From: Nocardia pneumoniae NBRC 100136
GTDB taxonomy: Bacteria > Actinomycetota > Actinomycetes > Mycobacteriales > Mycobacteriaceae
Length of the DNA stretch: 64,000 bases
Reading direction: 5' to 3'
Assembly (NCBI RefSeq): GCF_000308755.1
Contig: NZ_BAGF01000008.1
Span: forward strand, 1 to 64,000
This document shows, one piece after another, positions 1,073-7,797 of this stretch (the stretch's first letter is position 1; each line of letters starts with the position of its first letter). The position numbers were made by a program, and so were the translations under genes. Below the pieces are notes generated by a model, which had not been told where the DNA came from, searched no databases, and was given only the letters and a program-made list of their open reading frames with translations.

Positions 1073-4000
1073 ATGCAGTCAGCACAGCGACCGGGGGACG
1101 GGACGGGGAAAGCGGAAAACGTGGCAGACGCGGGGCCGGTGGTGGGACGTGCCGAGATCCGCGCGGCCATCGCGAGCCAGCTCGGCATCCCCGCCGACTC
1201 GATCGCCGACGACGCCGACCTGATCCAGCTGGGCTTGGACTCGATCCGGACGATGAAGCTGGCCGGTGGGTGGCGCAAACGCGGCATCGACATCAATTTC
1301 GCGCTGCTGGCGGCGAACCCGACCGTGGACGGCTGGCACGGGCTGCTCGGCGGTGCGGGTGAGCCGGAGGCGGTCGAAGCCCCCGAGCCGCGGCCGGAAC
1401 AGGCGGAGCAGGACGACGACGCTCCCTTCGCGCTCGCGCCGATGCAGCACGCCTATTGGATCGGCCGCTCCGAGTCGCAGGAGCTGGGCGGCGTCGCGGC
1501 GCACCTGTATGTCGAGTTCGACGGCGCCGGGGTGGATCCCGGACGCTTGGAGCGAGCGGTCGAAGCCCTGGTGCGGCGGCACCCGATGCTGCGGACCCGC
1601 TTCCGGCCGGACGGCACCCAGCAGACCATGACCCATCCGGGCCGCCCGGTATGGACGCTGACCGACCTGCGCGCACTGCCGCAGGAGCAGGCGCAGGAGA
1701 CGTTGGAGTCGTTGCGTGACCGCAAGACTCACCAGCGGATGGCCGTCGAGGACGGTCAGGTCATCGACATCGCGCTGACCCTGCTCGCCGACGGGCGGAC
1801 CCGGCTGCATCTGGATGTGGACATGCTGGCGGCCGACGCGATGAGCTATCGCATCCTGGTCAGCGATCTGGCTCGCCTCTACCACGGTGAGTCGCTTCCG
1901 GAGCAGGAATACACCTTCCGGCGCTACCTCGCCGACCAGCCGAACGGACGCGGCGCCGAGCACGATCGCGACCGGGAGTGGTGGCAACAGCGACTCCATG
2001 AGCTGCCCGGCGCACCGGAACTCCCGCAGGCACAGAGTGTTTCGGGACCGAGCCGGACGGTGCGCTATCACCGGTGGCTCGCCCCGGAGGCGAAAACGCG
2101 GCTGTTCGAGGCCGCGCACGCCCGCGGCATCACTCCGGCCATGGCGCTGGCTTCCGTGTTCGCCGAAACCATCGGAGCATGGTCGGCGCAACGGCGTTTT
2201 CTGCTGAATCTGCCCCTGTTCCATCGCGAACCGGTGCATCCGCAGGTCGACGGGGTGGTCGGCGACTTCACGTCCTCCGTGCTGCTCGAGGTCGACGTGA
2301 CCGAACCGGCCACCGTCACGCAGCGAGCTCGCGCCCTGCAAGCGAGTCTGCACGCCGCCGGTGCGCACACCGCGTACTCCGGCCTGGAGGTGCTGCGCGA
2401 TCTGGGCCGCCTGCACGGCGAGCCGGTGCTCGCGCCGATCGTCTACACCAGTGCGCTCAACCTCGGGGAGTTGTTCGCCGACGTCGTCACCGAGACCTTC
2501 GGCGAGCCGGTGTGGATCATCTCGCAAGGCCCGCAGGTGCTGCTGGACGCGCAGATCACCGAGGTGCGCGGCGGTCTGCTGCTGAACTGGGACGTGCGCG
2601 AAGCGGCCTTCCCGCCCGGTGTGCTGGACGCGATGTTCGCCCGGTACATCGACGCGATCAACCGCCTGGCGGGGGACGGCGCCTCGCACGATCGGGCGGC
2701 GGGCTGGGATGCCGAGGCGGCGCTGCGGATTCCGGTCGAGCAGGCGGCCACCCGGGCGCGGGTCAACGCGACCTCGGGTCCGGTGAGCGGACGGTTGCTG
2801 CACAGCGGGTTCTTCGCGAACGCGGCGGCGGAACCCGAAACGCCCGCGCTGATCCGGGAACGGGACGGAGCGATCTCCTACGGACAGTTGGCGGCCGAAG
2901 CGTTGGCCGTCGCGGGTGCCCTGCGCGAAGCCGGTGCCCTGCCGGGTGATCCGGTCGCCGTGCAGTTGCCGAAGGGGCCGGACCAGATCGTGGCGGTCCT
3001 CGGCGTGCTCGCGGCCGGGTCGGTCTATGTTCCGATCGGATTCGATCAGCCCGCGGCCAGGAGAGCGGAGATCCTGCGCACCGGTGATTGCGTCGCCGCG
3101 CTGACAGTCGAAGGCGCGGAGATACCGGGGGTGCGGACCGTGGCACTCAGCGCGGCACGTCGTCATCCGGAACCGTTGCCGCGTCCCATCTTCGGTTACC
3201 CCGAGAGCATCGCCTACGTGCTGTTCACCTCCGGCTCCACCGGCAAGCCGAAGGGCGTGCAGGTCCCGCATCGGGCCGCCATGAATACCATCGATGACCT
3301 GAACGAGCGTTTCGCCCTCGGCTCGGCGGACCGCTGTCTCGCGCTCTCGGCGCTCGAGTTCGACCTGTCGGTCTATGACATCTTCGGTGTGCTCGCAGCG
3401 GGCGGCGCGGTGGTGACGGTCGACGACGCGCAGCGCGGCGAGCCCGCGCAGTGGGTGGAACTGATTCGCCGCCATGGCGTTTCGCTGGTCAACTGCGTGC
3501 CCAGCCTGCTCGACATGCTGCTCGCCGCCGCGGCGGGCGCTCGCCTGGACTCGCTGCGCACCGTGCTGCTCGGCGGCGACTGGGTGGACGTCGCCCTGCC
3601 GAGCCGATTGTCGGAAGTCGCGCCGGACTGCCGGTTCGTCGCGCTGGGCGGCGCGACGGAGACCGCGATCCATTCCACGATCTGCGAGGTGGTCGGCGCC
3701 GACGTTCCGGCGGACTGGAGCGCGGTGCCGTACGGCACGCCCCTGCGCAACGTGCGCTGCCGGGTGGTCGGCCCCACCGGCCACGACTGCCCCGACTGGG
3801 TGACCGGCGAGCTCTGGATCGGTGGCGACGGCGTCGCGGCGGGCTACCGCGGCGATCCGGAGCGCACCGCCGAGCGGTTCGTCGTCCACGACGGCATGCG
3901 CTGGTACCGCACCGGCGATCTGGCTCGGTACCTCCCGGACGGTTGCCTGGAATTCCTCGGGCGCGCGGACCATCAGGTCAAGATCCGTGGTTACCGTGTG

Positions 4001-4618
4001 GAACTCGGTGAGGTGGAAAGCGCGTTGCGGTCCGTGCCCGGTGTGCGTCACGCGATCGCCGCGGTGGTCGGAACCGCGGCGCCCAAGCTGGCCGCCGCCG
4101 TGGTGCCCGAGGCTGGCGCCGACACGACCGTGGCGGCGGTGCTGGACGCCGTCGCGGATCTGTTGCCCGCCTACATGGTTCCCGCCCGGGTGGAGATCCT
4201 GCCCGACCTGCCGCTGACCCCGAACGCCAAGCCCGACCGCAAGGCGATCCACGCGGTTCTCGCGCGCGGCGACGACGACGTCGAATACGTCGCTCCCCGA
4301 ACCGATCTGGAACGGGCGCTGGCGGACGTCGTCGCGACGGTGCTGAGCGTCGAGCGGGTCGGCGCCACCGACGACTTCTTCGCCCTGGGCGGTGATTCGG
4401 TGCTGGCCACCGCCGTGATCGCGCGGGTGCGGGAGTGGCTGGACGCGCCCGACACGGTCGTCGCCGATCTGTTCGCGGCGCGGACCGTCGAGGGGCTGGC
4501 CGGGCGTATGACCGATCGGGAACGTGAGCGTGGAACGGCAGGACGACTGGACACGGTAGCGGCGGTCTATTTGGAGGTCGCGGCGATGTCGGACGAGGAG
4601 ATCCTCGCCAGCACGTAG
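1073..4618 (+). CDS. Siderophore NRPS, ArCP-Cy-A-PCP (MbtB-like, no thioesterase)
   Basis: 1181-residue nonribosomal peptide synthetase. Domains: aryl carrier protein (LGLDS, phosphopantetheine Ser57); heterocyclization domain ~105-540 with the DxxxxD signature at Asp250/Asp255 in place of HHxxxDG; adenylation domain ~575-1060 (YVLFTSGSTGKPKG near 714, FDLSVYDIFG, KIRGYRVELGEVE near 966, PNAKPDRK near 1052); peptidyl carrier protein (LGGDS, Ser1109). It should condense an aryl acid delivered by the ligase at 1-938 with Ser/Thr/Cys and cyclize to an aryl-oxazoline or -thiazoline. The A-domain code read by eye is D-L-Y-N-L-G-L-I-H-K, closer to the Cys code DLYNLSLIWK than to Ser or Thr codes. 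No thioesterase follows the PCP, unlike MbtB (~1414 aa), so the chain must pass to another synthetase outside the window. ATG 1073 follows AAGGAG at 12 nt. Confidence 0.93.
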   Translation: MQSAQRPGDGTGKAENVADAGPVVGRAEIRAAIASQLGIPADSIADDADLIQLGLDSIRTMKLAGGWRKRGIDINFALLAANPTVDGWHGLLGGAGEPEAVEAPEPRPEQAEQDDDAPFALAPMQHAYWIGRSESQELGGVAAHLYVEFDGAGVDPGRLERAVEALVRRHPMLRTRFRPDGTQQTMTHPGRPVWTLTDLRALPQEQAQETLESLRDRKTHQRMAVEDGQVIDIALTLLADGRTRLHLDVDMLAADAMSYRILVSDLARLYHGESLPEQEYTFRRYLADQPNGRGAEHDRDREWWQQRLHELPGAPELPQAQSVSGPSRTVRYHRWLAPEAKTRLFEAAHARGITPAMALASVFAETIGAWSAQRRFLLNLPLFHREPVHPQVDGVVGDFTSSVLLEVDVTEPATVTQRARALQASLHAAGAHTAYSGLEVLRDLGRLHGEPVLAPIVYTSALNLGELFADVVTETFGEPVWIISQGPQVLLDAQITEVRGGLLLNWDVREAAFPPGVLDAMFARYIDAINRLAGDGASHDRAAGWDAEAALRIPVEQAATRARVNATSGPVSGRLLHSGFFANAAAEPETPALIRERDGAISYGQLAAEALAVAGALREAGALPGDPVAVQLPKGPDQIVAVLGVLAAGSVYVPIGFDQPAARRAEILRTGDCVAALTVEGAEIPGVRTVALSAARRHPEPLPRPIFGYPESIAYVLFTSGSTGKPKGVQVPHRAAMNTIDDLNERFALGSADRCLALSALEFDLSVYDIFGVLAAGGAVVTVDDAQRGEPAQWVELIRRHGVSLVNCVPSLLDMLLAAAAGARLDSLRTVLLGGDWVDVALPSRLSEVAPDCRFVALGGATETAIHSTICEVVGADVPADWSAVPYGTPLRNVRCRVVGPTGHDCPDWVTGELWIGGDGVAAGYRGDPERTAERFVVHDGMRWYRTGDLARYLPDGCLEFLGRADHQVKIRGYRVELGEVESALRSVPGVRHAIAAVVGTAAPKLAAAVVPEAGADTTVAAVLDAVADLLPAYMVPARVEILPDLPLTPNAKPDRKAIHAVLARGDDDVEYVAPRTDLERALADVVATVLSVERVGATDDFFALGGDSVLATAVIARVREWLDAPDTVVADLFAARTVEGLAGRMTDRERERGTAGRLDTVAAVYLEVAAMSDEEILAST

Positions 4619-6228: not shown

Positions 6229-6412
6229 CGCAGCCACACCACCCCATTCCAGGTTTCGAGCGAAGCGAGACCGAGCATTGCCCGTTCGCGGCCCGGCTCG
6301 CGTCCGAGTGGCCGCCGCGCAAGCGACGAAGTCGCGAGCGGCGGTCGCTCGGACGCGAGCCACAAAGGGGCCGTGAACACGCAGCGCCGCAGGCGCTGCA
6401 AATTGAACACAG
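6229..6412 (+). repeat. Dispersed repeat family A, copy A1 (full: L, M and R modules)
   Basis: Most complete copy. Module L contains GCGAAGCGAGACCGAGCAT (6260-6279 region). Module M is an imperfect palindrome of ~65 bp starting GCTCGCGTCCGAGTGGCCG and ending CGGACGCGAGC (~6296-6360). Module R contains GCAGCGCCGCAGGCGCTGC, a hairpin with 8-bp arms and a 3-nt loop (6380-6400). Related copies lie at 7728, 8383, 29234 (inverted) and 58842. It fills most of the gap between the AhpD-like gene and the DAHP synthase leader. Confidence 0.85.
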
Positions 6413-6433: not shown

Positions 6434-6462
6434 TTCACGGAGTGGTTGCGGCCTGGTACTGT
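6434..6462 (+). promoter_or_regulatory. Promoter of aromatic leader peptide / DAHP synthase
   Basis: TACTGT at 6457-6462 is a good actinobacterial -10 (TANNNT), with a weak TTCACG -35 at 6434-6439 and a 17-bp spacer. The predicted transcription start falls at or next to GTG 6470, so the leader peptide would be read from a leaderless transcript. Confidence 0.6.
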
Positions 6463-6469
6463 GCCTGAC

Positions 6470-6541
6470 GTGCAGCGCGTGTATTTCTGGTTTAGCAAGC
6501 CGGCCCTGGGTGGGCTGGTCTGCGGCAACCACGTGCGCTGA
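6470..6541 (+). CDS. aroR: Leader peptide of DAHP synthase, with Tyr-Phe-Trp-Phe (aroR-like)
   Basis: A 23-codon reading frame from GTG 6470 to TGA 6539-6541 begins VQRVYFWFSKPALGG. Four consecutive aromatic codons (TAT TTC TGG TTT) are what a ribosome-mediated attenuator sensing Tyr/Phe/Trp charging would need. A -10 hexamer ends 7 nt before the start. A short leader gene (aroR) upstream of the class I DAHP synthase gene aroF is described in Corynebacterium glutamicum; this looks like the same arrangement, with all three aromatic residues represented. The DAHP synthase starts 85 nt after the stop. Confidence 0.75.
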   Translation: MQRVYFWFSKPALGGLVCGNHVR

Positions 6542-6551
6542 CGACATTCCA

Positions 6552-6609
6552 CCCCGAGCCGGATGATGGACCGGCTCGACGGGTTTCACGTCCGTGGGTC
6601 GGCCCCGAG
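6552..6609 (+). promoter_or_regulatory. Candidate attenuator region between leader peptide and DAHP synthase
   Basis: GAGCCGG (6556-6562) and CCGGCTC (6571-6577) form a perfect 7-bp stem 14 nt after the leader stop. A direct repeat CCCCGAG occurs at 6552-6558 and 6603-6609, offering alternative pairings. There is no U-tract, so whether the switch acts on termination or on access to the AGGAA ribosome site at 6613-6617 is unclear. Confidence 0.4.
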
Positions 6610-6626
6610 AAAAGGAAACCCACGAC

Positions 6627-7718
6627 ATGACAACCGCAGCCGACGTCGACGCTCGGCATTCCGATCTGGACGATCAACGCACCTTGAACATCAGCCCGCT
6701 GCGCTCGCCGGCGGAGGTGCGTCGCGTGCATCCGATCACCGATGCCCTCGCCGACACCGTCCGTGCGGGCCGCAAGGCCACCGTGGACGTGCTCAACGGC
6801 GCCGACGATCGCCTCATGGTGATCGTCGGCCCATGCTCGGTGCACGATCCCGCCGCCGCCTTGGACTACGCCCGCCGACTCGCGGCCAAGGCCGCCGAAC
6901 TCGACGATCGGCTGCACGTGGTGATGCGCGTCTACTTCGAGAAGCCGCGCACCAGTCTGGGCTGGAAGGGCCTGATCAACGACCCGCACCTGGACGGCTC
7001 GTTCGACGTCAACACCGGTTTGGGCTTCGGCCGCAAACTGCTGGTCGACATCACCGCGCTCGGGCTGCCGGTGGCGTGTGAGTTCCTCGACCCGATCACC
7101 CCGCAGTACATCGCGGACCTGGTGTCCTACGGCGCGATCGGCGCGCGTACCGCGGCCAGCCAGGTGCACCGGCAGCTCAGCAGCGCGCTGTCGATGCCGG
7201 TCGGCATCAAGAACGGCACCGACGGCGATGTCCAGGTGGCGGTGGACGGCGTGCGCGCCGCGGCGGCGAGTCACGTCTTCCCCGGCACCGACCTCGACGG
7301 CCGCTCCGCGCTGATCCGCACCACCGGCAACCCGGACTGCCATGTCATCCTGCGCGGCGGCAGCAACGGCCCGAACTACGACGCGGCTTCGGTCGCGGAG
7401 GCGTACCTGCGGCTGGAGAAGTCGTCGCTGCCGCAGCGGGTCGTCGTGGACGCCAGCCACGGCAACAGCAACAAGGACCACAACAAGCAGGTGGACGTGG
7501 TCACCGACATCGCAGACCGGCTGGCCGCGGGCGAAGCCGGTGTGGTCGGCGTGATGCTGGAGAGCTTCCTGGTCGCGGGACGCCAGGACCTCACCCTCGG
7601 TCGCGCGGCCGAACTCACCTACGGCCAATCCATCACCGACGCGTGCTTGGACTGGGACACCACCGCGCGCCAGCTGGACCGGCTGGCCGACGCGGTGCGG
7701 CAGCGTCGCGCGCGCTGA
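6627..7718 (+). CDS. aroF: Class I 3-deoxy-7-phosphoheptulonate (DAHP) synthase
   Basis: 363 residues of the AroF/G/H family, which joins phosphoenolpyruvate and erythrose 4-phosphate in the first step of the shikimate pathway. Visible motifs: IVGPCSVHDPAAALDYA, EKPRTSLGWKGLINDP, KNGTDG and DASHGNSNKDH (metal and substrate ligands). ATG 6627 has AGGAA 9 nt upstream and gives MTTAADVDARH; an in-frame ATG at 6594 would run through the presumed attenuator. Expression is probably set by the upstream aromatic leader peptide. The 3' end runs into repeat copy A2, which separates it from a convergent methyltransferase gene. Confidence 0.96.
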   Translation: MTTAADVDARHSDLDDQRTLNISPLRSPAEVRRVHPITDALADTVRAGRKATVDVLNGADDRLMVIVGPCSVHDPAAALDYARRLAAKAAELDDRLHVVMRVYFEKPRTSLGWKGLINDPHLDGSFDVNTGLGFGRKLLVDITALGLPVACEFLDPITPQYIADLVSYGAIGARTAASQVHRQLSSALSMPVGIKNGTDGDVQVAVDGVRAAAASHVFPGTDLDGRSALIRTTGNPDCHVILRGGSNGPNYDAASVAEAYLRLEKSSLPQRVVVDASHGNSNKDHNKQVDVVTDIADRLAAGEAGVVGVMLESFLVAGRQDLTLGRAAELTYGQSITDACLDWDTTARQLDRLADAVRQRRAR

Positions 7719-7727
7719 TCGAGCGCC

Positions 7728-7797
7728 CGGGCTCGCGTCCGAGTGGCCGTCGCTTTGCGAGGAAGTCGTCAGCGGCGGTTGCTCAGGCGCGAGCCCA
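7728..7797. repeat. Repeat family A, copy A2 (module M only)
   Basis: GGGCTCGCGTCCGAGTGGCC at the left and GGCGCGAGCCC at the right form a long imperfect inverted repeat matching module M of copy A1. It lies between the convergent DAHP synthase and methyltransferase genes, 10 and 14 bp from their stops, so it could act as a bidirectional terminator. Confidence 0.75.

Follow-up and report, generated by a model that had tools for sequence, protein, structure and literature searches.

The window, a stretch of 64,000 nucleotides of Nocardia pneumoniae NBRC 100136 (contig NZ_BAGF01000008.1), carries on its forward strand a class I DAHP synthase gene (6627..7718, ATG at 6627) that matches the TIGR00034 aroFGH profile with 488.9 bits and is preceded, as the original prediction had it, by a ribosome site, AAGGAA at 6612-6617. 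In a profile search of the genome this gene (aroF/aroG/aroH family) was the only PF00793 match, and matches to class II DAHP synthase are located elsewhere in the genome. The closest named relative found at the locus is from Nocardia (N. xishanensis, 93% identity). Between 4677 and 10063 lie, in this order, an SDR, an AhpD-like protein, the leader and DAHP synthase discussed here, a methyltransferase, an acetyltransferase and a SigJ-like sigma factor, an order partly or wholly preserved in the related genus loci with flanking sequence. Two similar long palindromic stretches (about 6296-6362 and 7730-7797) stand on either side of the DAHP synthase gene; they run from GGCTCGCGTCCGAGTGGCCG... to ...GCGAGCC and, by eye, look like a repeated element. 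An NRPS with an adenylation domain is encoded at 1073-4618, 2 kb before DAHP synthase, and we take its N-terminal carrier and cyclisation-like motifs to resemble those of the MbtB/NbtF siderophore enzymes. Because a siderophore-like NRPS is so close by, iron stress could drain chorismate beside an aromatic sensor.

Directly upstream of the DAHP synthase gene, a short frame and several complementary segments make up a putative leader, with the following features:

6457..6462, + strand: -10 hexamer TACTGT, 7 nt before the GTG (read directly; spacing of 6-8 nt in the other leaders)
6470..6541, + strand: leader frame MQRVYFWFSKPALGGLVCGNHVR, 23 codons from GTG 6470 to TGA 6539-6541, with no ribosome site upstream (read directly and by comparison)
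6482..6493, + strand: putative control codons TAT TTC TGG TTT, Tyr-Phe-Trp-Phe (by comparison)
6500..6513, + strand: S1, CCGGCCCTGGGTGG, partner of S2 (inverted repeat, 86% complementary); it also opens a local hairpin, P1 (6499-6506/6512-6519)
6549..6562, + strand: S2, CCACCCCGAGCCGG, the swing strand, with S1 or, by its 3' half, S3 as partner (inverted repeats; compensatory changes in other genera)
6571..6578, + strand: S3, CCGGCTCG, 3' arm of an 8-bp hairpin with 6555-6562, with no T run after it (inverted repeat)
6593..6604, + strand: S4, CGTGGGTCGGCC, whose CGTGGGT is able to pair with ACCCACG 6618-6624 around the ribosome site (minimum-energy fold; conserved GGGTCGGY-like motif)
6612..6617, + strand: ribosome binding site AAGGAA of the DAHP synthase gene (read directly)

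Direct reading confirmed the predicted 23-codon frame with its four consecutive aromatic codons, the -10 hexamer 7 nt before the GTG, and a hairpin before the ribosome site, which is a perfect 8 bp (6555-6562/6571-6578). The direct repeat predicted along with them is only partial in the window (GGGCTGGTC in the frame, GGGTCGGCC at 6596-6604); a repeat search gives another, weak 19-nt pair (74%) that is not the predicted one. An inverted repeat search independently returned both 6500-6513/6549-6562 and 6555-6562/6571-6578, with 6555-6562 common to the two. The RNA from 6470 to 6629 is more stable than its shuffles (z -3.0; 2/200 shuffles as stable), and P1 is present in the minimum-energy fold of the leader. 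An 11-nt inverted repeat joins the promoter spacer (6442-6452) and the leader frame (6522-6532). A sigma-70 consensus scan found no promoter at the locus, and a terminator scan of the + strand from 6541 to 6626 found no terminator-like site. Rfam (T-box, riboswitch and leader families) gave 0 matches in the window at gathering score, and its only match on 18 related loci was a tRNA; a T-box or riboswitch reading was thus rejected. We also discarded a second sensor copy in the same genome, the sole other TAYTTYTGGTTYA match (L290) sitting inside a 40-codon open stretch.

DAHP-synthase upstreams were sampled from named genomes and from the same genus, family, order and class; 148 genomes of the genus were searched and 74 upstreams examined, and some of the sampled genomes may belong to one species. 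After removal of duplicates (L001, L082, L162, L163, L283, L284, L286, L287), an aromatic leader is present in 203/232 actinobacterial upstreams, namely the 202 of the main count, on which all leader statistics rest, and L234, recovered on a re-check of eight upstreams that had been scored negative for a leader. Early frame ranking used aromatic content alone, later rounds preferred start candidates with a TANNNT, and automatic leaders in the final count required one; among loci from L082 onward, no leader-like frame was discarded for want of it. Four less aromatic leaders (L193, L214, L233, L276) were entered manually, the start was shifted to an inner codon in four (L088, L093, L225, L232), and the gene behind one of the 202 (L289) matches DAHP synthase weakly (34% identity, E 5e-5).

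Within the genus of the window, the frame is found in 70/74 upstreams, with YFWF in 69/70 and PAxGG in 70/70; the 8-bp hairpin is present in 65/70 of these leaders and a GGGTCGGY-like motif precedes the ribosome site in 69/70. Relatives thus retain the frame and the aromatic codons, the loss of which had been named in advance as one observation that would speak against a leader peptide. The four genus upstreams without a leader are all second gene copies. The peptide core YFWFS(K/R)PAxGG is preserved over several genera, other groups retain the layout with different residues (YWRF, RWYAYF), and F, Y and W are all present in 194/202 leaders.

Of the 29 upstreams without a leader, some belong to second gene copies (L168-L171, L263, L264, L266), ten (L248-L257) to more distant enzymes in one other family of the order, and five (L273, L277, L280-L282) came from the class search; the others are L029, L016, L067, L074, L119, L265 and L267. 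In L029, from a Streptosporangiaceae MAG, the leader core RWYWRFT is kept but its frame has no early stop codon. Copies with and without a leader can be contrasted within three genomes of the window's genus (G007, L102/L168; G040, L150/L169; G047, L105/L170) and three of another family of the order (G329, L229/L263; G341, L226/L266; G347, L227/L264); in all six, the copy without a leader is the more distant DAHP synthase. This contrast leaves out L119 and L171. Upstream of the complete class II DAHP synthase (L292) there is no aromatic leader with leaderless-type spacing, and that gene has a leaderless-type start of its own.

A TANNNT ends 6-8 nt before the ATG or GTG in 202/202 leaders (exactly 7 nt in 169), compared with 8/2554 other ATG/GTG codons in the same stretches, and an AGGA-like site lies 5-16 nt upstream in 1/202. 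Leader starts were picked with a preference for TANNNT; since the background is 0.3% per codon, the result is beyond chance despite this biased choice. A -10 hexamer at this distance and the near absence of ribosome sites suggest that the leader transcript is leaderless. Leaderless translation of an attenuator peptide had been considered unusual, a view that finds no support: in the available parts of the published reports, seven of the eight attenuator leaders reported for S. lividans are described as transcribed leaderless (PMC8079986), and the C. diphtheriae ilvB leader is leaderless as well (PMC5784534). Because leaderless attenuator leaders are common in actinobacteria, such a start is not surprising here.

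The sensor favours Tyr and Phe codons that DAHP-synthase genes avoid. Tyr is encoded by TAT in 209/223 cases (94%) in the 202 leaders versus 6/480 (1%) in 82 DAHP-synthase genes, and Phe by TTT in 214/334 (64%) versus 2/455 (0.4%); in five other genes of the window the counts are 11/50 for TAT and 3/61 for TTT, the rarity of TAT being milder there. The quartet TAT TTC TGG TTT is found in 104/116 YFWF leaders and TAT TGG CGC TTT in 32/36 YWRF leaders, so that conservation reaches synonymous positions and otherwise avoided codons. The bias depends on position, since the middle Phe is usually encoded by TTC, the common codon. TAT and TTT may be favoured for slow wobble decoding; alternatively, they may keep the region unstructured.

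The pairing of S1 with S2 is best seen outside the window's type of leader, where the GGCTC motif used to locate S1 occurs in 60/74 leaders. In 53 of these 60, S1:S2 makes 10-11 of 11 gapless pairs, with exchanges of C-G to U-A and of G-C to A-U. Counted from the last aromatic codon's first base, S1 begins 8-9 nt further on in 47/53 terminator-bearing leaders, and 9 nt further on in the window. In an alignment of 33 sequences (L015, L210 and L289 left out), both sides have changed in 6/11 S1:S2 pairs and 8/10 terminator pairs; jointly, 97.2% of cells pair in the two helices versus 87.9% when shuffled and 37-45% when slid, and together they do better than 500/500 shuffles. When partners were swapped between 77 sequences, 0/10000 permutations were as good as the own S1:S2 partners, yet this loose duplex test gives a weak signal when post-stop sequence is shuffled instead (mean z -0.94; z < -2 in 14/77). 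For S2:S3, 0/10000 permutations were as good as the own partners in 38 sequences, and z is below -1.5 against shuffled sequence in 29/38. Compensatory pairing across relatives, which had been proposed as a check, is therefore found in other genera for both S1:S2 and S2:S3.

Inside the window's type, covariation is almost nil because the segments hardly vary. The 3' half of S1:S2 makes 6/6 pairs in 56/66 sequences, a value that 13% of shuffles reach, and the helix is nearly invariant apart from a compensatory pair in L012. Column-pair covariation (APC) over 51 window-type sequences gave no pairing signal and was abandoned; most of its top pairs are non-pairing and look phylogenetic. Swapping partners does not weaken S3:S4 in the window's type (7395/10000), in contrast to the other types, where 0/10000 permutations were as good. 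Of the claim of an aromatic leader peptide at DAHP synthase, then, the leaderless signature, the conserved aromatic codons and the compensatory RNA pairing stand.

The types also differ in their terminators. U-tailed terminators occur in 2/128 window-type leaders, in 27/54 and 16/20 leaders of two other groups, and in 2/770 shuffles. One of the two in the window's type, L015, has the other architecture; L127, also of the window's type, has the hairpin GAGCCGG/CCGGCTC followed by seven T, a textbook terminator. The terminator starts 0-5 nt past S2 in 57/59 leaders and overlaps S2 in two, and S3 lies beyond the terminator hairpin in the other types and after an 8-nt loop from S2 in the window's type.

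We folded the leaders with the ribosome stalled at the aromatic codons or placed at the stop codon, leaving out L218 in the window's type and L015 and L210, whose gene start is misassigned, in the others. In 34 leaders of the other types, S1:S2 has 8.8 pairs and S2:S3 1.35 in the stalled state, versus 0 and 7.2 at the stop codon, where the loss of S1:S2 is by construction since S1 is excluded from that fold. In 53 window-type leaders, the 3' half of S1 contributes 5.6 pairs to a duplex with the post-stop segment in the stalled state and 0 at the stop, and the mean probability of the hairpin is 0.72 stalled versus 0.96 at the stop; it is higher when stalled in only 7/53, and the window's own hairpin stays at 0.85 when stalled. 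The mutually exclusive pairings share S2 and show compensatory changes in other genera, so that a switch by ribosome position is well supported; their dependence on the ribosome is predicted by folding. In the other types the U-tailed terminator persists whatever the state (0.97, 0.97 and 0.98 in 53 leaders) and starts beyond S2, so it is not competed by the switch, and classical antiterminator competition was rejected for these types.

Taken together, the leaderless-type 23-codon YFWF frame is most likely a ribosome-mediated attenuator, in which a ribosome stalling for lack of charged aromatic tRNA would favour S1:S2 and turn the gene on; we give this reading a probability of just under 0.8. 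According to the folding predictions, a stalled ribosome occupying the aromatic codons would let S1:S2 form and release S3, and a ribosome at the stop codon would abolish S1:S2 and let S2:S3 form. Starvation would then correspond to S1:S2 and high expression, and sufficiency to S2:S3 and low expression. In trp/his-type enterobacterial attenuators, a stalled ribosome selects between exclusive RNA pairings. The window's leader likewise has a run of end-product codons and exclusive pairings; unlike the trp/his type, it has a leaderless-type start and no U-tailed terminator, and its sensor codons precede S1, so that a ribosome stalled on them would cover little of S1. Because of the missing U-tailed terminator, we do not file it as a classical transcription attenuator. 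As in the aroR type, an aromatic leader that its spacing suggests is leaderless lies directly upstream of an aroF-type gene.

Since the hairpin has no T run, we propose that in the Nocardia type the read-out, the weakest step of the model, may act mainly at the translation start of DAHP synthase, via S3/S4 and the ribosome site, the main alternative being a T-less or Rho-dependent stop of transcription. We commit to the switch and leave the read-out between these two because the terminator is uncompeted, the accessibility of the ribosome site is unchanged and the docking costs are mixed.

A read-out by translation alone, in which S4 would sequester the ribosome site and S3:S4 would free it, as in the mycobacterial cysteine leaders, is a serious candidate that we place somewhat below even odds. 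The spacer pairs better with its own than with a swapped ribosome site (1/5000 in 53 window-type sequences, without L091, L173 and L218; 1/10000 in 36 others, which still include L015 and L210 with their misassigned gene start), but the advantage over shuffled spacers is modest (mean z -1.43 in the window's type, -0.89 in the other types). The better fit of S3 to its own S4 in the other types and the absence of a terminator in the window are also consistent with it. Of three docking windows tried, the only significant one, the 30S docking site from -18 to +10, costs less to open when stalled in 40 and more in 13 of 54 leaders of the window's type (p=0.002), and less in 19 and more in 6 of 34 of the other types (p=0.011). 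Against such control, the ribosome site stays, on average, about equally unpaired in both states (0.39 vs 0.37 in the window's type, 0.40 vs 0.43 in the others), and the opening cost in the window itself is 9.98 stalled and 4.99 at the stop, the wrong direction for translation control. We rejected the direct chain from a stall through S3:S4 to an open ribosome site: S3:S4 is rare in the window's type (0.10 stalled, 0.01 at the stop), and because it rarely forms and ribosome-site pairing is unchanged, this is where the chain is weakest. Overall, folding lends weak support to Shine-Dalgarno control, and the fold of the window itself contradicts it.

Transcription may instead be the level of control: the hairpin at 6555-6578 (S2:S3) would act as a stop that needs no T run, by itself or together with Rho, and S1:S2 would be a classical antiterminator that removes the hairpin's 5' arm; we give this nearly the same odds as translation alone. 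It would fit the sharing of 6555-6562 by the two pairings in the window and the fall in hairpin probability on stalling, although the hairpin persists when stalled in most sequences. L127, with seven T after this hairpin, argues for it; the scarcity of U-tailed terminators in this type, one of the two being the differently built L015 and none lying in the window, argues against it, as would a need of mycobacterial RNA polymerase for a U tract. In favour of transcription, aroR of C. glutamicum is reported, in the accessible part of a review, to act on aroF transcription (PMC11802643).

More tentatively, and with slightly less confidence than we have in either read-out, the ancestral actinobacterial DAHP-synthase attenuator may have been a swing-strand switch, in which S2 moves between S1 and S3 without competing with a terminator. 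A U-tailed terminator, if present, would sit untouched in the S2-S3 loop, and the Nocardia/Rhodococcus/Amycolatopsis type would keep the switch without it. Because the terminator-less type retains the switch, the conserved output would be either control of the translation start or S1:S2 bringing the stalled ribosome beside RNA polymerase, and the rare wobble codons would set the sensitivity to the three amino acids.

It is improbable that a small functional or arrest peptide is the purpose of the frame, with selection on its residues and RNA pairing secondary. The preservation of the peptide core across several genera would agree with such a role, but the avoided codons and synonymous positions are conserved too, PAxGG is encoded by S1, the counterpart of which shows covariation in other types, and other groups have the same layout with other residues. 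A chance frame or artefact, which the short length and GTG start might suggest, is excluded for practical purposes by the conservation, spacing, codon bias and pairing statistics.

A relative of the window's leader is already known from Corynebacterium glutamicum, where the aroR leader of aroF was reportedly described by Neshat et al. in 2014. In the accessible parts of two papers (PMC4046766, PMC11802643), this leader contains Phe-Tyr-Phe, and the second, a review, describes aroF transcription as altered by Phe limitation and not by Tyr availability. Integration of all three amino acids by one peptide, as originally predicted, may fit the 194/202 leaders with F, Y and W, but less so this account of C. 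glutamicum. In both aroR as described there and the window, a class I DAHP synthase follows a leader whose aromatic codons are consecutive; unlike aroR, the window's leader has YFWF, with all three aromatics consecutive, an S2 shared by S1:S2 and the downstream hairpin, and no U-tailed terminator. Two sampled leaders, MRNWRFYFEWGSGR (L190) and MRMWRFYFSKAPEAETS (L210), combine FYF with the same TANNNT spacing and may be Corynebacterium-like; in L190, GGCTCCGGC pairs with GCCGGAGCC.

Leaderless attenuators of other pathways are known from S. lividans (leuL, trpL, ilvL) and C. diphtheriae (ilvB), and the available parts of these reports (PMC8079986, PMC5784534) describe the same combination of a leaderless peptide, sensor codons and a biosynthetic gene, some of this class also lacking a clear terminator. 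The S. lividans table (PMC8079986) has no DAHP-synthase leader as far as it is shown, and the DAHP-synthase leaders differ from these attenuators in that the switch strand covaries around the terminator. Mycobacteria also have cysteine-responsive leaderless short ORFs, described as acting by translation attenuation (Canestrari 2020, as cited in the available part of PMC13236596); they sense another amino acid and serve another target, and ribosome-site control is weakly supported in the window. A 2005 comparative study found, in its accessible part, no conserved element for phenylalanine/tyrosine operons in actinobacteria (PMC1262725). Our literature search (actinobacteria, Streptomyces, Rhodococcus/Nocardia, proteobacteria), largely at the level of titles and so not implying absence from print, returned no DAHP-synthase leader outside Corynebacterium.

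Leaderless actinobacterial attenuators and C. glutamicum aroR were already known; the leader described here varies this kind and is set apart by the three-aromatic sensor, the rare-codon bias and a switch working without or around a terminator. It broadens the attenuator of one species to an element across several actinobacterial families, one that would gate entry to the shikimate pathway in genera relevant to antibiotics and aromatic chemistry. Because codon usage is inverted, a choice of slow-wobble codons in attenuators can be tested directly, and a switch that bypasses its terminator, or exists where there is none, raises a pointed question about how attenuation works in high-GC bacteria.

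Aromatic leader frames were also seen at non-actinobacterial DAHP-synthase loci (50 within L019-L081, from Xanthomonas, Dyella, Burkholderia, Bradyrhizobium and others), for example KFYFYFFWHL, SFYFWYYGFP and TSYFWYFSYD; Rfam gave no match in the five of these loci that were checked. In 32/50 of the non-actinobacterial upstreams, versus 1/200 control stretches, there is a frame in which 4 or more of 5 residues are aromatic.
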